Source: Sycon ciliatum
Lineage: Eukaryota > Porifera > Calcarea > Leucosolenida > Sycettidae
Direction of reading: 5' to 3'
DNA: 64,000 nt
NCBI RefSeq assembly: GCF_964019385.1
Contig: NC_088655.1
Location: 2,753,238 to 2,817,237, forward strand
The notes under the pieces were generated by a model. That model was given only the letters and a program-made list of their open reading frames with translations. It searched no databases and was not told the DNA's origin. Shown here in pieces: positions 1 to 53,600 of the stretch. The position numbers and the translations under genes are program-made. How positions within the stretch are numbered: the first letter of the stretch is position 1; each line of letters begins with the position of its first letter.

Positions 1-802
1 GCATTCTGGCCCTTTGCAGTATTTTTCAACTATCTCCCCCCCCCCCCCCCGCATGCGCTCTAGCTCTCACCATGAATTGTTGAGGATTCAGCTGCTACCC
101 ATGACAGCTTGCCATATGCAGCTTAGGATATGCACACAGACATGAATTTTTGATCGAATGCGTCACTTGATCTCGCCTCAATACTTTGTATTTTACTTGA
201 CAACACAAACTGGATAGGACCATGCCCATGGCTTGTCTACTGTACTCGTAGTTTTGAGGAGAAAAAAACTGATTTCCTGTACACACCAGCTACTGGCAGC
301 TACACGTCCCTGTTCGCATGACGTGACTGCATGCACTGATGCATCGATGATGTCTTTGATGAGTCATGAACTTTCTTCAAAACTGGGAGTAGTAAAACAC
401 TACTCCCTAGTTTGGCTTTGTCGGCAAATCTGCTGCGCCGATAGATGCAAGTCTTGTGTTTGACTGGTGCAGTGGGGACTGTGCATGTGTTCAGAGAGCA
501 GAGCGGTTGTTCAGGGCACTGAGCAAAGTTTGTGTTCGATCTTGACGTTTTCCTTGGCTTCAATTCAGCTCATCAACGATCGAGCTCTGTTGGGTTTGTG
601 GAGGACTGTATCACATCGACCAGCGCTGAATTTTTAGTTAGCTTTAGCACCGTCTTCAGGCGGTGTAAAGAAGGCTGTGGTTGTGTAGTATCACACGGGA
701 ACATACAGTTGTGAGTTGACTGAAACTAGTCTTGAGGTCAGTTTCTCGACTCTGACCGTAGATTTCCAGTAGCTGGTTTGGACGTCGTTGTTGCTGCTCG
801 CG
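1..802. other. Upstream flank of the syntaxin-6 gene
   Basis: I see no gene here. The stretch starts with a short C tract (about 37-50) and holds a small palindrome at 385-407 (GGGAGTAGT / ACTACTCCC). The 5' untranslated region and promoter of the syntaxin gene should lie in its last few hundred bases, but no TATA box or other clear signal can be named. Confidence 0.5.
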
Positions 803-8323: not shown

Positions 8324-9901
8324 GTGTTCTGACTTCGAAGTACATTGATATATGCGTGCACGCACGTTTCAGGCGTCGTGCTAAACGTGGCCAGGAGAGT
8401 GCAGTCCCGCCGGAACCGGTCCGGTTGGTCAGGTTATTACCGGACCAACTTTTCACCTACCAACGCATGTTTGCTGCTAGCCTATTAAAAGAGGTCATAC
8501 ATTATGTTCCAACTACCGGCAAACAAATTGTGTGAACGGCTTTGGTACGACCGGATTGGATACTGCTCCCGGTGGTTCTTGTGTGACCTTACATTTAGCA
8601 TAGAAAGCACCTGTCAGCATAGACGTGCAACTGAAGGGCTGTCAGACATGTAAATAATATTATTATATTAACGAGGAACATGGATTGGGTTGAAATCTAG
8701 AGATATAGACCGGTATAATTATTGTAGTCTGCGGCTCTTCGTTGGAGAATGCACTTGCAGTATGAAGAAAATAGACAACTGTAGATGAGCTTACCACGTA
8801 CATGTACGCCAGTTTTTCATCAGGGGAAAGTGGAACTGACACATTTTGATAAAGCAGCCCACAGACTAGCCGCAAGCACAGTTGAATACGAATATAGTAA
8901 TAATTATTATCATGAGGTCCTGTGCAACAGGGACCTCTGCATAGGCGTTAAAAAATCATGATCCATCATTGATACTCAGGACAGCTTTTTACTATCCTTT
9001 AGCATGCTGCAGTTACTGTTAGCTGGCAACACTAGGCATGGAGTCGCAGGTAGCTGAAGTCTCTAGGCGATTACCGGTAATTGGCAAAACCACTTATGGA
9101 TATGGCACATACCGTACCGGTATGCGTCCTATCAAGAGTATTATAAAGGTTTATGTACTCTTGGTCCTATCTATACCCTCACAATCGGTAGAGCTGCTGC
9201 TAAGAAGGAAGTGCGGCACACACTCTATGCAGCAGTCAGTGTAGGGAGCAACCAGCTTTCTGCGTATATCTACGTTCAAGTACCGGAAGCCTGATGCACC
9301 CAGTGCAAGAATGCACAGAACAATAGTGGTCAGGCTAGTTTGACACTAAACTCAGTTTCATGCAGGGAGTCGTAAAATACTTTTTAATTTTTTTTACGAC
9401 TCCCTGGTTTCATGCAGGGAGTCGTATTTTTACGACTCCCTGGTTTCATGCTTACCTAGTCATCAGGCAACACTCAAGTATTCATCTTGCTAAGCTAGAC
9501 ATCAATGGGTCTACAACCGTGGGGCGTTCTGGCCTGTCGTCCAATCGCAGTGCTCACACGTTCAATTGTATACTAGTAGAGCAGTACGGTGTCCATGTGT
9601 GCGATTCAGAGCCGCACAGCGCGGGCAGTTTTAAACACAGCCGCAGATCGCCACGACTTGGAATAGGCTGCCAGCAGCGGCGTGTGGTGTGACTGGTACG
9701 AAAATCCCGGCAGTACCGGTTTCGTCGGGCGTGCTAGCTATAAGTTAGCAACGATTGGTCAAGGTCAAGAGCGTGTCTGTTCATTGATATTTCAACGTGT
9801 TTCTTTATATTGGCGAGGCAGACTGCATGGGAGTACCCATTGTGACACTAATACCTCTCCGACCACCACACGCCGGGCTAGAATCTCGCTGCATGGCGAT
9901 G
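7023..9901. other. Intergenic region between syntaxin-6 and the TRP channel 3' ends
   Basis: The two genes converge here. I see no gene. Contents: GT tract 7129-7199, GT/CT tract 7371-7434, GT tract 7660-7698, C tracts 7790-7809 and 7876-7886, GT tract 8293-8327, a CCGGAACCGGTCCG-containing repeat near 8408 (relative near 15740), and the double palindrome at 9355-9451. No AATAAA signal could be assigned to either gene with confidence. Confidence 0.6.
9355..9451. mobile_element. Two mini-palindromes separated by three copies of a 9-bp direct repeat
   Basis: GTTTCATGC occurs at 9355-9363, 9407-9415 and 9443-9451. Between the copies lie two palindromes that start AGGGAGTCGTA and end ACGACTCCCTG, of 43 and 27 bp. 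If the C is counted with the element, the ends are the symmetrical CAGGGAGT / ACTCCCTG and the direct repeat is 8 bp. Confidence 0.85.
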
Positions 9902-11230: not shown

Positions 11231-14200
11231 GGGGGGGGGAGGGAGGGAGGCACAGAGAGAGGGAGGGAGGGAGGCACAGAAACAGACAGAAAATGAGGGA
11301 AACGACAGTCAGCCAGACAGATAGAGAAACAGGTCAAAAGCAGGTAGAATTCTGCATGAAACCTTTCAGTCCTTCCTCTACGACATACCTGTAAGAGCAA
11401 TGTTTCAAGTCTGTCGTAGCGTTCATTCTGCGTCTTCAGCTGACTGTGGATAGCCTGCCAGGCCCCCCCGGGCTGTGAGTCGACAGTAGCAGTTGCTGGT
11501 ACTACCTGCCAGCACAGCAAGCATAGCGTGAAGACAGGCGGACTGAGAACATGCAATACCGACAGCAGAATCACACTGGTGCCGGGAAGTGTTTTAACCA
11601 ACCTCATGACTGAAAAAGTAGAGACAAGTACAAGTACCACATTTCCACGAATATAAGTCAAACCTTTTCATGCTAAACGTCAAGGGCAAAGAAGGCGACT
11701 TACAATTGAGTGTCACAACCTACTTATGTGAATATCATTGAAACAACAATATGGCTCAGACTTGAAGCGGGGGTGCGGCTTATAATCGGGGAAATACAGC
11801 AATCATTCACCACTCACTACCATGCTGGCAGAGACCCAGGAACAATTCACACATGCATGCAACACTAGGTGCTTACCACCACATACAAGTACTTGTACTG
11901 CAGTTCGCTACCGTCAGTTTGGATAGGGAGTAGTAAAATAGCGGTATTTTACTACTCCTTGGTCAGTTTGGACAGGGAGTAGTAAACTAGCGGTATTTTA
12001 CCACTCCGTGGTTTGGATCCAATCTGATGCAGAAATTGTTATTTGTTGACTTCTGATGTCATCACAGACAGGTCCTATTATAGTAGTGGAAGTCACACAT
12101 TGCTAGCACCCTGTACCTGATTGGCTGTGTTGTCTTGGGTCACGTGATCACCTGTCACCGGGCCAGTAACCTGGGCGACGGCACTGTTGCTATGGGATAC
12201 CAGTGTGAGGTGGTGGCGCTTGGATTGCTCTAGCAGCTGTAAGAAAGAGTACGGCAAGTGAGAGGTTACTACATGAATTACCGTGGTGTCTTGTATTAAA
12301 GCCTGTCTCATATAGCAGCCTGTTTTGAATAGAATACAAGCCTGATTTTCAAGATACACTGTCGGCACATACGCCTGGTTTTAGTGTGGACATGCATAAA
12401 AAAAACACCTGGCTCGAATAGAAGCCTGATGTGAATAGAAGCCTTGCACTGACATCGGTTTCTACAGGAATACGCCCGGCTTTAATAATTCGCGACATTA
12501 CGGGTAGTCAAAATTCATGTGAAGCATGGGGCGGAGTAATGGGAGAGAGAGGCATGTGTGCCGGCAAGAACTTCTGTCGCAAAGGAAGGATACACGTGTG
12601 GATTTCGAACCCAGCATCCCAGTCTTTCCGGGACAGTGCCCTATCGATTAGGCTACCGGGCATCACACACACCCGTGTGTCCTTCTTGCTAAACTTCCAC
12701 CATGCAAAGCATTCATCAGAATCATGTTTTGTCGTGCAAGAGGTTGCATGTTGCAACTGCATGCCAGTCATTTTTACTCTCAGCTTTTGCAGCAAGTCTC
12801 GGTCAGGCAGCCAGCTCCACACTGTGTTGGTCAGTCTGTGACCGTGCGGAACGGACTAACATCGGACCGGCTTTCTCAGACGACGGCACTTGTGATGACG
12901 AAAACACACACCAAGGACACGCGGCAAAGACATACTCCTAATACCAGCCCAGAGCCAGCTGCTAAGGGGTAGTACGGCCCCAGATCTGCTAAAGGATCGA
13001 TTATTTACCCTTGCGCAGTTTCAAATCCTGGGAGGATACATCTCCAGCACTGTACATCGTATCTGTTTGTTTCAGCTACACATTGCTCTAGCAACATATC
13101 ATTATGACAGCTAGCGCAGTAGACCTCACTGGACAAGAAAAACAGTTTAGGAGGAGAGACTCCAGCGAGGAGTGTATGAGGATAGCTTATTACTAGTACT
13201 TCCAGATGATCAATTGCACACTGAGCTGTCCATGAACAAAACACTGGTACAGTCAACTTTGCGTATAACGACACTCAGCGGGGCATCAGAAAAGTGTCTT
13301 TATTCGCGAAGTGTCCTTATACCCAAAGTTTCATTATATGTATTACAGTTAGATGGGACTTTGCTCTGGGCATGGAAATTCTGTCGTTATTCGCGAATTG
13401 TCGATATATCCGCAGTCGTTATTAGCGAAGTTGACTGTACGACCATGGCCGCAGCAGTCGTACCAGTGCCGCCGGCCCTGCACTACGCAACCATGATACA
13501 GACCTGTGCCTACGACTCACACGCGGTCCGCAAACCAACTAGCCAGCTTACCTCCAGGCGGCTGTTCTTGACGGCCTCCAGAATGCCAGTATTCCACTTT
13601 TCCTCCAGTATAGTCTGGTGGTCAATGTGTTGAAGGAGCTGCAGTTGTTTCATCTACATACACGTGCCACGCACATGCCCGCACACATGCACACACACGC
13701 ATTCACATGCACACACCAAAAGCACTCCAGCATATCAGTCTATCCTCTCCTGCTAGGTGTGTTTTACAACGGAACATGCTTTGCGATACATTACGGTCAC
13801 TAAAGCTTAGTGGATCTGACGGTTTAGTGATGAGATTAGCCTGCATGATAATATTTTGACTTTTTACATATTCAGCAACACATTAGTACTCACATCTTGC
13901 TCAGCTTTCTGTCGGAACATGAGCCTCTCCAGGTGCACGAAACCGTCCACCTTCTCCTCCTGCAGCAGCTTTTGCAGGTCCTTGGCACTGATGGTCTCCT
14001 TGTGGTTATAGTAGCGACTGCGCCAGTCACCAAACTGCGAGCAGCAGGGTGACGGAAATTAAAACAAAGAAAGAATGGATGGATGAGAGGGAGGAAAACG
14101 TTTCTAACCACCCGCAGACTCCAGCGCAGCCACTTACACAGCTAATAGGGTACCTCAACTCCAGAATACGGTCCCTTGGCTGCATATGCCACTATAAATA

Positions 14201-25754: not shown

Positions 25755-25797
25755 GTTCAGGACAGGGAGTGTATTTTACTACTCCCTGGTTCAGGAC
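25755..25797. mobile_element. Mini-palindrome with perfect 9-bp flanking repeat
   Basis: A 25-bp palindrome (AGGGAGTGTATTTTACTACT to CCCTG) sits between GTTCAGGAC at 25755-25763 and GTTCAGGAC at 25789-25797. Confidence 0.85.
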
Positions 25798-28225: not shown

Positions 28226-28370
28226 AACATAGAACATAGAACATAGAACATAGAACATAGAACATAGAACATAGAACATAGAACATAGAACATAGAACAT
28301 AGAACATAGAACATAGAACATAGAACATAGAACATAGAACATAGAACATAGAACATAGAACATAGAACAT
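28226..28370. repeat. 7-bp satellite (AACATAG)n, about 20 units
   Basis: Nearly perfect array; the only drift is at the right edge (CATGGAATG). The unit is telomere-sized but is not a known telomere motif. Confidence 0.95.
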
Positions 28371-28726
28371 GGAATGCAGGATCATGCAGTGTAGCTGGAT
28401 CTGTACTTGTCAAGTATTCGTAATGGTATTTGTTGTATTTTTACATCACAAGTCAATCGGGCAATCATGCCCAATGTTAGTAATTGTTATGATGACGATG
28501 TCAAAGATGAAACATTTTATTAAATGTTCTACGGTAGGTGCAATAAAGAGTCGGCGGGGAGAAAACAATTACCGATACATTTTATTGTATAATGTCATGT
28601 TTGCGTTATGCAGAGCTCACTGACTTGTCAGATTGAGCACTCTGGCAAGGTACGTTCGGGCCTGGTTTAAATCTGACCTTGGAAAATTAATTTTTCATTG
28701 CTATCAGGTTCGGCCTCATTTCCTCT

Positions 28727-31030: not shown

Positions 31031-34000
31031 ATGGATGACATGGCCGCTGAGGAGCCCGCCGCAAAGCGAAAGCCTCTGCTGCCTTCACTGGTCAAAGCTA
31101 AAAAGAAGCTATTGGAACAGGCCGAAGAGTCAGGAGTTCAGCTGAGCGGCGGACTCGCTTCGGATGAACTCATTCCGCTCGAAGAGATATTCGTAAATTT
31201 AGCATTGGTGTCAGAAAAGCAATTGAAAACCGACTTTGATGAAACGTTCTCGACGTATGCAGAGAGACGTGAACTCGCCGTGCAATAGACCAATCCCGAA
31301 AAGATTGTCTGGGTTCGAAAGGGGGCATGTCAACTGAGAGTACACTGTACAACACATACATGGCACTACCTGATCAGCATGCGGCACAGGACGTGTTTGA
31401 TAGTTCGCGTGTGAATGCGAGGGTAAGTACACGGTTTTCTCGTTAGTTGCATGCAAGAGAGACGATGCGACAGAAAGCAAAGCCCTTTCTCTCTCGCACT
31501 GGTAATGGTCTGCTGTTGGAGTGGAAATGCTAAGACATAATCCTTGTTTCGCTCTTCTGTGTAGTGTGAAGAGGTCAACGAACATGTAGAGCTCACTTTG
31601 ATGAAGTACGCAAGGCTGTGAGCGCTGTGGCTCAAAGCGATAGGCCCTAAATCTTACGAGATATTTCGAGCGCCATTGTTTGTTGCGAGCGCTTCGTCTT
31701 CGATGAGTCTTGCCTCTTTCCTGTCAGGTTTCCTCCAACAGGACCAAGCACGAAGTGACTGTACTCATCTGCAGCCGATCAATGTTCTACTGCGCAAGAA
31801 GATTGCGTTTTCGCCAAGCCAGTGCCCCGCCAAAGACCATCGCCATGTCACAACGTCGGAACGAGTTCATGATGAGAATCATCATTCGCGCGAGCTTGAT
31901 GAAGAACTATTTTCGAAACACAACATAGTCTCTACCTCCGGGACGACAACTATGCGCCGGTCCTGGAAGGGGAGAATGTCTCCAGCGATAAGAACGAAGA
32001 CGACGGCGGTATTTCGGCAACCTGGAGTCAGCGGAGTTCGTCAAGCTCTTCCGCCTCCGCGATTCGGTACATCAACTTACTACATGTGCAGTAGGTGACA
32101 TGTCGACACGAGCGTGCGGGAACACAGCATACACTGTAGTACTGTTGCGAGAGTTTGCGGAAGGAGTCCAAGTCGGGAAATCCATCAGCTCCAAAAGCTA
32201 CCTGTAGGTGGGCGATGAGACTCCAGCTTCAGACTACAACAGTCAGGACTTGTAAATAGTTGAACTTTGTGAAGCAGCAGATCGAGAAGTTAGTTGAAAT
32301 CGTAGCTGTTGCAGTATGTCGGCGCTATGTAGCTTGTATTTTTTACGGAGAGTCGATCGCCACGCGAATGTTTCTCACCTCACCGAGAGCTAGCTGGCCT
32401 CCAAACTCCGTCAGGGTCTTCCTAAGGTACCGAAGGTCCTTTGACTAGCTGCTGGCAGGACTCCATCAAATCCTTTAGCTTCAGCTCGGCGAGCAAAAGT
32501 CTCTCTCTCCTCCGCCATGAGCTGACACACACAAACTGAATACAAAACGATGCACTTCACACGTGCTGGCTTGCACGCGTGCCCCCTTTCACGAACCCAG
32601 ACAATCTTTTCGGGATTGGTCTATTTAGCAAGGCCGATCGAATCGAACTGAAGAACCTGTTTCGTGCCGCAGGTTCGAGTGTTGACGCCGTTTCCCATTC
32701 AACAGGAAAAACTGCACCAGCAGCAGCAGCAGTAGCTACAGCGTCCGAGTCGAGAAAGCTGTGTGGCAAGGTGTTACGGAATGTACTGGCGTACGGATCT
32801 GCAGGGAGTGGCAAGACCACAGTGTTTCTGCTCATGGTTGTATACCTGTGGAGCAGAGGCGAACTATGGCAGGAGGAATTCGATCTGGTCGTGGGACTGG
32901 AGCTTCGTGAAAAAGAGGTGAGGGCAGCCACTAGTCTTGCTGAGCTGTTGACTGTGAAACTGACGAGCCAGGGCCTGTCGCAGACTGAGATATTGGAGCT
33001 GGCAAGCTACTTCGAAGATTCTCCAAGCCGTCTATGTGTCATCATGGACGGCTTGGATGAATGTGATTTCGCCAGCTGCAGTAAGTTCATGAGAGACTTG
33101 CTGAAACGTGATGGCATGGTGAAGACACACGTGATTGTCACAAGCCGTCCATGCCAGGATGCATATCAACTATCGCAGTGTGGCAGATATCAGCAGAAGA
33201 TCCAAGTACTGGGTTTCTCACCGGAGAACGTGAGGGAGTACGCAGAGAAGGTTCTCGGCAAACAACGCGCTGAAATTCTGCTGGCAGAGCTGCAGAGCAA
33301 GCCGGATGTGTCTTGTCTTATGGCAACTCCCATGTTTGCAGCCCTAACATGTGAGCTTTTCGAGAGCAGCAATGCCGTGTGGAAGTGCAGCGCATCCCTG
33401 TACGAATCGTTACTGCGTCGAGTTGTTGAGCGTGCTGGTGGTGCGGTTTGCGAGTCGATTTCACTTGCACCCAGCAAGTTACGTGGTCCAGTCGCTACAG
33501 GAACTGGGGCGTTTTGCGTTTCGCATGCTGCTGCTGAAAAGGATAGTATTCAACACGTCCGACATCATCAGCTCCCACTTGAGCAAGGATGCAATGAGCT
33601 TGGGTCTTCTGCAAACATGCCAGGGCACAATGTCTACGGACGCTCGGCAATACCGCTTCTGTCATCTGTCACTGCAGGAGTTCCTGGCGGCATGGTTCAT
33701 GGCAGAGTGCATGGTGGAAGAAAGACATCATGCCATTGCACTGGTACGGCGACTGGGTGCGTACGATGGCCATATGGCAATGTTCTGGAAGTTTCTTATT
33801 GCTTTATGCCCGGAAGACATGTCGCTGACCATCATGAAGGAGCTATGGCGAGTGCAATGTGCGAATCCCATGCTACTGGATCCTAGCGGTGAGGCCGACG
33901 AATCCACCAAACTAGTTAACAAATGGGCTAGCGCAGGACGAGAGGAATTGGCTGCCCAAGAGACTGGTATAGTCGCCAAACATGCTGCTGCTGCTGCCAC

Positions 34001-35189
34001 TAGGCGTGCTGCCACCACCGCTAAGCTAGCCGAGGACATGCGTGACGACTCAAGTGTCCTGACTGGTGAGATGGAGATGGCGAAGGTCCACGGCAGGCTT
34101 TGCGAGATACTGAAGGCGGAGCAGATGACAGTCCTCGCCGACATTCTCCTCATTCCTCGGCATGACCGTGGCAAGGGCCATGGTGAGCAACGTGTGCGCC
34201 GTTCCATGCCCATCAGCCGAGAGCCCACAGACGCGCTATTCCTAAAGACTCTCCTGATGGTGTGGATGGAGAACGGCAGCATTGCAAATGGCACTGTGCT
34301 GCTGGAAGCGCTTTCCCAGGTGGATGCCGAGCTGGTGCGGCCGTGCAAGAGTCTCCTTCATTCCACTGCTATGCTGCTGAGTCCGGAATACCTGCAAGCT
34401 GCTCCTTCTCGCATTGTAAGTCTAGCTGATGCTGTGCCTGCCGATGTATATTCTCCTATACGTAGGTTGTTTGTTCATCTTGTGGTGGCATATCATGAGC
34501 ATGCAGAGTATCACGGTGTGTCCTGCAACTGGACACACCCTTTCTTGCGTGCTATGCTTGCATCAAAGCTCAATCTCCGTCACGTTTCTCTTTCTTCTCA
34601 TGAATGTGTTGCTCTCAGGTCTTTACTGCGTTGCTATACATGTTGTGATTTGGAAGAAGTCAATCTCTTTGGGTGTGTTATTGGCGATGAGTCATTTCAC
34701 AGCTTATCAGAATGCTTACAGAGGTGTAGCAGTGTACGTGTACTAGATCTACCCTGGAATGCTATTCATGATGGTCAGGCATTGTCCTCCGTGATTTCGG
34801 CCATGTCAGCTAGTCTTGTTCTCGTGAACGTGGCTGGTAATCCTGTTGGTATGTGTGGTTTCGAGCCGGTGTGCCATGCACTCAGTCAGTGTAAGAATGT
34901 ACGCGCTGTCAATGTCATGTGCATGTATAGTGATGGTGCTCAACCGTTGTCTGTAGTCTGTGATATGTTGGAGCAGTGTACACATCTGGAAAGGTTAGAG
35001 TTGGATGGAAATGTGTTTGTGAGCAGTGAAGATAATGAGTTGAGATTCATCGATGGAGTTAAGGCGTGTACACAGTTACGTGTACTGCATGTGTATGGCT
35101 GTGGCTTGAGTGAGAACGTTTGTTCTCAACTTTTCACTGTATTCGCAGAGAGGGAGTGCGTTTGGAAGGCTTGTTTGGTGTCTGAGTAA
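31031..35189 (+). pseudogene. NACHT-LRR (NLR-type) receptor gene, interrupted
   Basis: Cytoplasmic STAND ATPase of the animal NLR type. The N-terminal piece 31031-31288 (ATG, then an LEEIFVNLAL block typical of NACHT flanks) ends at a stop inside an inverted-repeat segment. The NACHT piece is open from about 32540 to 33480: Walker A GSAGSGKT at 32795-32818, Walker B with IMDGLDE at about 33041-33061, sensor HVIVTSRP at about 33128-33151. The frame then shifts by +1 around 33440-33500 and continues to TAA at 35187-35189 with the winged/helical region (FCHLSLQEFLAAWF, about 33660) and three to four ribonuclease-inhibitor-type leucine-rich repeats (about 34560-35130). No death-fold domain is visible. 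It could be a pseudogene, carry an assembly error, or be spliced across the insertion. Confidence 0.75.
31283..32630. mobile_element. Foldback segment with ~46-bp inverted repeats splitting the NLR gene
   Basis: The left end (31284-31330, with AGACCAATCCCGAAAAGATT) and the right end (32579-32626, with AATCTTTTCGGGATTGGTCT) are inverted copies differing by a 2-base indel and a few bases. The interior 1.25 kb has no ORF I can identify. It sits exactly between the NACHT-flanking piece and the NACHT domain, as an inserted foldback or MITE-type element would. No clean target duplication is visible; GCAA flanks both sides at a distance. Confidence 0.7.
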
Positions 35190-50600: not shown

Positions 50601-53600
50601 ATGCCTGCAGCTGCAGAAAAAGTGCTCAACATCCAATTTCTAGGGGGGAGCAATGACACATGTCTACAAACAATGGATCACCCGTAGTGTTATGCTACTC
50701 TGAGTTTCATTCACTGTGTGCAATGATCAGGCAAACAACATTCACAAAAAATAAATATATACACACACACACACGCGCGCGCACACACACACACGCGCAC
50801 GCGCACCCGTCTCACGTGAGCGCCCCACCTTGATTTTACAGTCGGGGAAAAGGAAAATCGCATGGCAGAGTGAAACGAAGTTTGTACGGCCTGCACCGCG
50901 CGAGAACCTTAGTAAACTAAGGTCACACTTGGCAGGTTTTTGTGTGGAGCTCGTGTCCGCTTGCAGGTAAATTGAGTAGGGATTGACTGCATAACGCGTG
51001 ATATGGGTACACGATTATTTTTCCGTCTGACCTAGTTGATCTACTACTGGTGCAGGCAGGACATCACTTCCACAAGACCACCACAAAAGGACGAGATGGT
51101 GCGGCGCTCTCGTGGTACTCTATGGCACTGCCCGATATATCATATGAGCCAGAGCATGCGAAAAGGGTGCTTACGCTCAAAGTTTGGAAATTGGATTCTT
51201 TAGTGCACCACGTCAAAAACTCCAAGTAAAACCCAAGTTACAAGCAGTTTCGTTGGTTGCCGTCTGACAGTCGTGCACATGAAAGTGCAACTTCAAGTGC
51301 ATTTTTCTCAGTTCAGCGTGCAGTGAGCCAAGCACCCTCTTCGCATGCGCTGGCTCATATACGCAGTATGGGGGATTAGGGTCTAGCGGGACCGATACAA
51401 AACTGTTTCCGCCGATCACGTTATGATCTCTCCATCGATACCGACAGTAGGGTTAGAGCCCAACATACTTCGAAGTACTATCGGGCTTGATAGCGGTGCG
51501 GCTAGGCTTTTCATCAAGAACAAACCCATGTGTGCTCTAGTCAGCAAGTTTCTCCTCTGTCAACACGGAATGGGGGAGTAAAGACGAAAGCAGCCTCCTC
51601 CATGTGACGATGTGTTCCTATGACGCTGCAGACTGGTGTGCAAAATGGTTGGCGCTCTGATCCCCAGTAACCTGTCCCAGTACTACATGGAGAAGGAGTG
51701 AGAGGATGTCACCACCTGGCATGCAAAGGGGAAACTGCGGCTCAAAGCTAGGACTAGACTGCAAGTACAGTACTGGCCAAAGAAATCCAAACTCTTGAAT
51801 AAAATAGCGTTGCCTTACACTCTGTGCACTCTAACGCGGCGCTACTTTATTCATGAGGTTGGATTTCTCTGCGGGCCAGCAATCTATCAACAGTAGACAG
51901 CACAACCACGCTGCCAACGCAAAGAGGAAATACCGTCAAGTTTACTATGAGGATCTCAGTGGGTCTTTCACACCACTGGTGTGTTCAACTGACGCGGTGC
52001 TGGAAGCTACCAGAATCGACTTGCTGGTCGCCTCGCACTCACATGGGACAAGCCATTTTCAATCGTGATGGCATGGGTGGGAATTCGCACCTAATTCGCT
52101 GTGTTCCATGTCACAGTCGAATGTAGCTCAGGGAGTCGTGAAAAAATGGCCTTAAGACTCCCTGATGTAGCTTACTGACTGCTTACTGACTGCTTACTGA
52201 CTGCTTACTGACTGCTTACTGACTGCTTGCTGACTGCTTACACACTGTACAACTCCATACTGCGAGTGCTTGGGTGCGCGAAAATATGCATGGCCAGCAA
52301 TCAAGGAAAATCTGGGAGTTGCAATTTTTGGATTCCTCCGAGTTGTTATTTTGGGCTTGGGCCAAGCACAAGGAGAAGCCTTTTGCCAAAAAAACTGTAG
52401 AAAATGGTTGTTGTTTGATCCTTTGATGCAATCTTTGTAGCTGATCGAAGTTAGTTGCTGTTTGGAGCAGAAATACTGAAATTGACTAATTACTGTCTGT
52501 GCTCCTGTACTCCGGCATGCAGCCTCACTTGCATGTTTTAGCAGCCATTTTGGCCGGAATGGATGCTGCTCTGCTGCCCTTGCTGTGCATTACCTGTGCT
52601 CATGGAGCAGCTGAAAAGGACCACTAGTATGTCTTGTTCCCGGTTTGAAAGTGGAGAGACGACGTTCGTGCCTTGAAAAAGGAGTAGAGAGCGACAAAGG
52701 TACGTCGGTAGCGGATTTTTGAGTTCTCCTCGTGCATTTTGAATGTAGTAGAACATTCTCAGACCAAAGCCTCAGTCAGTGAATTGTGGACACTGTGCAG
52801 TGTACTGTGAAGTTTCCTTGTGGATTTACTACATGTAGGTTCATACCTTTGTCAGTATCGAGATGGTGAAGTGGACCGGATGATTTCCCTCTTCTAGGCT
52901 TTGTTCAGCCAAGACTTTGCTTCGCTCTCGCTGAAATGCGATGCTGTGAAGAAGGTCGATTCGCAGAAATATGTTGATTTTCAATGTACGTGATGACATG
53001 TGATTGCTGGCTATGGAACATCGCGAATACCCGAGTTTGGGACTCTGGCCTTTAGGGCCGATTTCCACAACGGTACCGTGATTGCCGTGAGTACCCATAG
53101 TGATTTGCTCATGTGAGGGGCAGTTTTGGCGAGAGTTCATCCATGGGTCGTGCCGTACCGCGCCGTGGACATTCCGGTGCCTCTGGCCTCTGGGGGGTGG
53201 AAATGGCATGCCGTGGTATTCCGTGAGGTCGAATACAGTGTGTAGTAGGTATTTTACTACTTCCTGATAGGAAGTTTTTTCTTTCTTTTGTATTTGTGGT
53301 ACTAAGTTTTTTCTTGGCTTTTGGCTTTTCGATTGGTTGATTTTGGAGCTTTCTCCAATCATCTCGCCTGCTATTTTCCCTCCAGACCAAAGTCAGAAAT
53401 TGGTAAAAATGGTGATCTGGCCTGCCGACGGAATGCACGGAACGACTGCGCGCAGGTGTAAATCACTCTCTGCTTCGAGCTCGTACCGTGGGGTACACGT
53501 GACCTATCCAAATCGTCAGCACGGCACTCACGGTACCATAGTGGAAATCGGCCCTTAGGATTACCCAAACCCGTTACCTGGTACGACATAATAATTATCA

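Follow-up and report, generated by a model that had tools for sequence, protein, structure and literature searches.

DNA transposons of the hAT superfamily have short inverted ends that begin with CAG or a similar sequence. Hermes is described as preferring nTnnnnAn targets, with 8-bp duplications and ends of about 450 bp (PMC10368747). Tol2 is reported to have inverted repeats of 17 and 19 bp, also with an 8-bp duplication, and the minimal Tol2 is given as 200 + 150 bp (PMC8151067). MITEs are described as spanning about 50-800 bp, with internal sequence (PMC6245586). For example, Mar, a hAT MITE family of Drosophila, is portrayed as non-coding and multicopy, with inverted repeats and duplications (PMC3517528). 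The short IESs of Paramecium, which are partly derived from transposons, go down to 26 bp and are reportedly still excised by a domesticated transposase; the same source states that DNA below the persistence length (about 150 bp) does not join its ends unaided (PMC3464196). The class of Paramecium IESs that would be expected near 38 bp is reported as largely absent (PMC9942856).

We found palindromic micro-elements in a 64-kb stretch of DNA from Sycon ciliatum (hereafter the window, meaning the whole stretch that we analyzed) and elsewhere in its assembly. They are real, depart strongly from chance, resemble hAT elements, and fall short of the size range of MITEs, and we infer that they are mobile at 27-38 bp. 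The family probably consists of non-autonomous hAT-type DNA transposons that were reduced to two terminal inverted repeats and that are moved in trans.

The ends of the micro-elements (CAGGGAGT...ACTCCCTG) fit those of hAT elements. Like Hermes and Tol2, the micro-elements have 8-bp duplications, and the nTnnnnAn consensus of these is as in Hermes. But Hermes and Tol2 run to kilobases and their ends to 150-450 bp, while a micro-element has two 19-bp ends or less, with 0-15 bp between them. Like MITEs and Mar, the micro-elements are non-coding, have inverted repeats of at least 10 bp and duplications, and are present in many copies. Unlike MITEs, the modal 38-bp form has no internal sequence, and 48 of the 50 copies listed are under the 50-bp floor, which bears out the suggestion in a first-pass annotation of the window that these units are shorter than known MITEs. 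Paramecium IESs, which are handled at 26-28 bp, raise the same question of how two ends can meet, but they have TA boundaries, are unique-copy, and are removed during development, while the duplications here are varied 8-mers. The lengths show the reverse pattern as well: the 38-bp class that is largely missing from Paramecium IESs is the commonest one here. Small inverted-repeat elements in tandem, as at some of our loci, are also described for coral CMITEs (PMC2872659) and for the hAT MITEs at inversion breakpoints of cod (PMC12368964). By these accounts, however, CMITEs are about 100 bp, piggyBac-related, and associated with TTAA (PMC2872659), and the arrays in cod are longer than 1 kb (PMC12368964). 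When we searched the literature, with most subscription journals outside its coverage, no title on micro-, ultra-short, or shortest MITEs or transposons concerned elements like these. Among the papers listed in a text search for four 12-letter end motifs, the titles were from unrelated fields.

Micro-elements in the window

Six palindromic units in the window carry CAGGGAGT and ACTCCCTG ends, with no more than one mismatch per end, and two further units are degenerate (positions are those of the window):

383..409, unstranded: degenerate 27-bp copy with no recognizable duplication (6/8 mismatches); relaxed scan
9355..9362, unstranded: 8-bp duplication GTTTCATG, copy 1; read and measured
9363..9406, unstranded: 44-bp palindromic element, CGT end variant; read, measured, shuffle control
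9407..9414, unstranded: 8-bp duplication GTTTCATG, copy 2; read and measured
9415..9442, unstranded: 28-bp palindromic element, same CGT end variant as at 9363..9406; read, measured, shuffle control
9443..9450, unstranded: 8-bp duplication GTTTCATG, copy 3; read and measured
11913..11961, unstranded: first 49-bp tandem unit, which is GTCAGTTTGGA plus the 38-bp element at 11924-11961; read and measured
11962..12010, unstranded: second 49-bp tandem unit, with its element at 11973-12010; a derived TAGCGG center is common to both units
25755..25762, unstranded: 8-bp duplication GTTCAGGA, copy 1; read and measured
25763..25788, unstranded: 26-bp element between exact copies of GTTCAGGA; read and measured
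25789..25796, unstranded: 8-bp duplication GTTCAGGA, copy 2; read and measured
52121..52128, unstranded: 8-bp duplication ATGTAGCT, copy 1; read and measured
52129..52164, unstranded: 36-bp element between exact copies of ATGTAGCT; read and measured
52165..52172, unstranded: 8-bp duplication ATGTAGCT, copy 2; read and measured
53236..53266, unstranded: degenerate 31-bp copy with no recognizable duplication (5/8 mismatches); relaxed scan

At 9355-9450, three exact copies of GTTTCATG alternate with the 44-bp and 28-bp units. This is just what the first-pass annotation had described (two palindromes with identical ends, and three exact copies of a repeat), and both reading and measurement agree with it. 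That annotation also listed related palindromes, each with its own flanking repeat, at 11919, 25755, and 52121. The latter two do lie between exact 8-bp duplications, but the flank at 11919 belongs to a 49-bp tandem unit (11 bp of flank + 38 bp). The elements at 11924-11961 and 11973-12010, whose ends have single mismatches, thus form a second double array. The clean palindromes with exact 8-bp flanking duplications span 26-44 bp. The exact pattern matches the window twice, versus no matches in 100 shuffles, and a relaxed scan of 264 kb (the window and 200 kb of sampled sequence) gave 11 matches, versus none in the reversed sequence.

Thousands of copies in the assembly

The assembly that the window comes from has 538,412,230 bases in 313 contigs. 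The first-pass annotation had proposed a genome-wide search for CAGGGAGT...ACTCCCTG palindromes, and this search was productive: CAGGGAGTNGTA, followed by 0 to 30 bases and then TACNACTCCCTG, occurs at 2950 places, and its reversed control occurs at none. The 38-mer, with up to 3 mismatches, is found at 1136 places or more (control 0; the first 50 listed are all perfect), and one exact 27-mer is found at at least 102 places (control 0). We also sampled 20 stretches of 10 kb, one per 4 Mb along contig C1. In these 200 kb we counted 7 copies, allowing each terminal 8-mer a single mismatch (and leaving out one 88-bp row), which extrapolates, very roughly, to 19,000 copies in the assembly.

The perfect 38-mers are clustered: 3 of 49 gaps are under 1 kb, a count that was not reached in any of 20,000 uniform runs. 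Either local insertion or duplicated host DNA would produce this clustering. Three of the exact 27-mers (C8:35272601, 35287788, and 35302986) lie on the same strand about 15.19 kb apart, which is probably a tandem segmental duplication.

In a collection of prokaryote genomes, the same pattern has 3 matches (L056-L058). These are terminator-like and lack 8-bp duplications, and we rejected them as insertions of this kind. A viral collection had no matches to the pattern.

Target site duplications

To describe the flanks, we used 54 rows from all of the loci collected, each no longer than 68 bp and with no more than one mismatch in either terminal 8-mer. (The rows include duplicates of the same insertions, L002/L006 and L009/L010, which are not independent; they also keep one spurious longer pairing, L049, and a different palindrome, L046:261-300.) The flanking 8-mers are identical in 24 of the 54 rows and have at most one mismatch in 33. 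When flanks were swapped between rows, just 7 of 2862 pairs were identical, and 17 of 2862 had at most one mismatch. At 4, 5, 6, 7, 9, 10, 11, and 12 bp, the numbers of exact flank matches in the 54 rows are 1, 0, 0, 3, 0, 0, 1, and 0. The first-pass annotation had expected duplications of 8-9 bp; 8 bp stands, and 9 bp, with no exact match in the 54 rows, is rejected. The duplication is 8 bp and not 9 because the ninth base, a C, is the element's own first base (CAGGG...). At the 9355 array, the C at 9451 is the only one that is host DNA. Across 22 distinct duplications, position 2 is T in 19 and position 7 is A in 16, which gives the consensus nTnnnnAn.

One copy has clear empty sites in the sample. 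The 39-bp insertion at L041 sits in a repeat, and two relatives of this repeat show that site with a single 8-mer and without the element (L024, 86.6% identity over 179 bp, and L035, 81.2% identity over 138 bp). The proposed check for empty sites therefore succeeded in related repeats, and not in other individuals as the annotation had in mind. Together with the exact 8-bp duplications, these empty sites support its reading of the palindromes as insertions with target duplication. It had also named two patterns that would speak against that reading, which were copies without duplications and flanks that belong to one longer repeat family. Neither pattern was seen: a duplication with no more than one mismatch is retained by the 33 rows above, and the flanks sampled do not form one longer repeat family, with shared flanks in only a minority of copies.

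It is very improbable that the palindromes are not mobile DNA at all, but are binding sites for host proteins or chance inverted repeats. Short palindromes can be binding sites, and 21 of the 54 rows have no clear duplication (their flanking 8-mers differ at two or more bases); of the 7 copies in the 200-kb sample, a duplication with no more than one mismatch is present in only 3. Against this reading stand the flanking 8-bp duplications, the empty-site relatives of L041, which contradict it, and the copy number with controls of zero.

A few loci have unusual flanks. L009:1501-1558 and L010:1501-1549 are two copies of one insertion that have a 9-bp difference beside the element, which is possibly a repair footprint. 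At L003:1501-1550, the element is followed by CTAGTGCATG and then by a second CTATGCAC, and some of the extra bases resemble an inverted copy of the duplication; they might be the kind of trace that hairpin-type excision repair could leave. The palindrome at L046:261-300 has the same CAGGGAGT end but is otherwise different, and its flanks are inverted (TTTTTTGC / GCAAAAAA), so it is a longer palindrome and not an insertion. Inverted-repeat elements of 195-223 bp, with other ends and with exact 8-bp flanking repeats, are present at L024:5274-5476, L028:3799-3993, and L035:2386-2608.

Two fused ends

We described the anatomy of the elements from 50 copies listed among the 2950 matches (two insertions occur twice). 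These copies are 26-53 bp long, with 19 of the 50 at 38 bp, and their arms are at least 12 bp in 46 of the 50. The commonest form, of 38 bp, is CAGGGAGTCGTAAAATACC joined to its own reverse complement. In other words, it is two 19-bp ends with nothing between them. A second variant of the 19-bp end is CAGGGAGTAGTACAATACC. The two arms of a copy vary together: among the 32 copies of at least 38 bp, the bases read from the two ends agree in 28 at position 9 (16 C, 12 A) and in 31 at position 13. When six of the forms were folded as single-stranded DNA, the predicted hairpins had energies of -7.4 to -17 kcal/mol, with the 38-mer at -17.

In longer copies, the arms are separated by unrelated fillers of 1-15 bp, and shorter copies lack the center. 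These irregular copies (16-35 bp, or with fillers of 1-15 bp) are best read as deletions of the center of the palindrome and as repairs of it. The shortest copy that we saw, at L019:1663-1678, is a 16-bp CAGGGACTACTCCCTG between ATGTGAAT and ATGTAAAT, with one mismatch in the duplication. We considered that the center AATACCGGTATT might be a protein-binding palindrome of the parent's end, and dropped this idea: 19-bp arms are retained in several of the copies that have fillers, which favors two 19-bp ends that were simply fused. A 430-bp element that shares the outer ends (L005:945-1374) was likewise rejected as a parent, as its left part holds the fused center ACCGGTATT. It can be read as a 37/38-mer that was possibly split by another inverted-repeat element (AGGGACCTTTCGCA...), with an apparent 3-bp duplication of ATT.

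Longer elements and the proposed source of transposase

The two variants of the 19-bp end are found at 1091 + 1085 places (variant A) and 456 + 545 places (variant B), with controls of 0. Using the first 100 rows listed for each variant, we paired opposite-facing ends within 6 kb. Among these rows, 20 of 28 pairings of variant A, and 14 of 23 of variant B, are 38 bp. Variant A also has listed pairings of 53 bp, of 134, 212, and 594 bp (in which the minus end of a 38-mer is used again), and of 2148, 2153, 2169, and 2544 bp. For variant B, the remaining pairings listed are six of 39-53 bp and three of 2231, 2920, and 3095 bp. No exact opposite partner lies within 6 kb for 47 of the 100 A rows (one of which has a partner beyond the rows listed) or for 54 of the 100 B rows.

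These pairings give seven long elements of 2.1-3.1 kb with the same 19-bp ends, located by the positions of those ends. Examples, identified by paired 19-bp ends, are:

C1:863610-865757
C1:9737057-9739225
C1:24523547-24526641

Kilobase-scale elements exist with each end variant, so inheritance from these is the simplest source of the co-variation between the arms. The two B elements of about 3 kb (C1:24523547-24526641 and C1:38083006-38085925) each have a 38-mer at 970-980 bp from the right end; a micro-element may have landed in a parent copy before that copy multiplied.

The existence of longer elements with the same ends also raises an unlikely alternative, in which longer hAT elements inserted and then lost their interiors, by abortive gap repair or by palindrome-driven deletion, and nothing ever moved at 27-38 bp. 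The fillers of 1-15 bp that vary between copies, and the many truncated arms, are what repair would leave. However, one exact 38-bp product prevails in both end variants and an exact 27-mer is repeated at 102 or more places, so very many independent collapses would need to stop at the same base, and long elements are few among the pairs listed. We favor transposition of elements that were already tiny, as a single exact product of 38 bp is the prevailing one in both variants and is found again at sites whose duplications differ.

We searched the assembly for the hAT dimerization domain (PF05699) and obtained 150 scored matches of 422 candidates, several of which fall in open frames of 400-780 amino acids. 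None of the matches listed lies inside the seven long elements, so the hAT label rests on the length of the duplication, its consensus, and the CAGGG end. By these marks, the suggestion in the first-pass annotation that the units could be hAT ends reduced to almost nothing holds up. It is quite unlikely, though conceivable, that the same micro-element is moved by another superfamily that makes 8-bp duplications, such as P or Merlin. Such duplications are not unique to hAT (those of P are given as 7-8 bp in PMC5199201), and the matches listed place no hAT domain inside the longer elements. On the other hand, nTnnnnAn is the reported preference of Hermes (PMC10368747), and hAT domains, which are the transposase domain that we searched for, are plentiful in the assembly.

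Returning to reduced hAT-type elements as the preferred reading, we propose that two 19-bp ends (CAGGGAGTCGTAAAATACC or CAGGGAGTAGTACAATACC) would fuse head to head, with no internal DNA, to give the commonest 38-bp copy. Longer relatives that share these ends would probably provide the transposase in trans, and it would insert the micro-elements at nTnnnnAn sites, which would yield the 8-bp duplication. The enzyme is presumably a hAT transposase, the longer elements presumably supply it or supplied it, and copies presumably moved when they were already 27-38 bp. Because the DNA between the cut sites would be far too short to loop, another geometry would be needed: the ends might be paired between sister or neighboring copies, the substrate might be sharply bent or cruciform, or the palindrome might be treated as one double end. 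We suggest, tentatively, that these are the smallest cut-and-paste DNA transposons known in an animal, with fused 19-bp ends, and even 27-bp forms, moved by a hAT-type transposase.

If the 27-38 bp forms do move as such, they set a new lower size limit for a cut-and-paste substrate and run counter to the view that hAT elements depend on long subterminal regions to transpose. They also pose the puzzle of how an enzyme could move DNA that is so short, given the long ends of the hAT systems that have been studied. Repeat finders that are set to 50-800 bp would miss the micro-elements, so they could be common and unannotated. The copies are also thousands of natural tests of short perfect palindromes between 8-bp direct repeats, including center loss, slippage, and tandem arrays.

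Double arrays

Adjacent elements should appear as ACTCCCTG, 0 to 30 bases, and CAGGGAGT, and this pattern occurs at 215 places in the assembly (control 3). The 50 places listed include 9 with a spacing of 8 bp, 5 with 13 bp, 5 with 19 bp, and 4 with 12 bp. None has a spacing of 7, 9, 10, or 11 bp, and the remaining 27 are spread over 5 and 15-30 bp. Three of the five 19-bp spacings are from one tandem array (C1:70398045-70398193). At least 9 of 50 at one given spacing was reached in 3 of 100,000 uniform draws, which is a simple control that ignores other structure. Besides the array at 9355-9450, L052 has an array of a 45-bp and a 24-bp element with three copies of GATAAAAC. Both arrays have an exact 8-bp period, and each has members of one subfamily.

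For double arrays, the first-pass annotation had offered either repeated insertion next to an existing copy or tandem duplication. The array at 11913-12010 is a plain tandem duplication, because its unit is wider than the 8-bp duplication and because the derived TAGCGG is shared. For the arrays at 9355 and L052, the best reading is slippage between the 8-bp repeats on either side of an element that forms a hairpin, but reinsertion into the same 8-mer would look similar, so at 9355 the annotation's two options are hard to tell apart.

That a second element entered exactly the same 8-bp target, instead of arising by tandem duplication, seems to us somewhat doubtful as an account of the double arrays. 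It would fit the preference for a spacing of exactly 8 bp in the close pairs listed (9 of 50, with none at 7, 9, 10, or 11 bp), and it would also fit the different lengths of the array members (44 and 28 bp at 9355, 45 and 24 bp at L052). Also, the flanking 8-mers differ between neighbors at C1:17677324, which shows that elements do insert close to a copy already in place. Yet in all three arrays that are readable in full, the members belong to one subfamily; the array at 11913-12010 has its shared TAGCGG and its 49-bp unit; and, by analogy, coral CMITE arrays may point the same way, as their authors put those down to slippage (PMC2872659).

The window has two other features of note. At 28226-28374 there is a tandem repeat, (AACATAG)n, with about 21 copies. 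At 32540-35189, an NLR-type gene, of a kind that points to an animal, encodes a NACHT domain and LRR in two overlapping frames, along with an NLRC4_HD2-like region that is below the cut-off.
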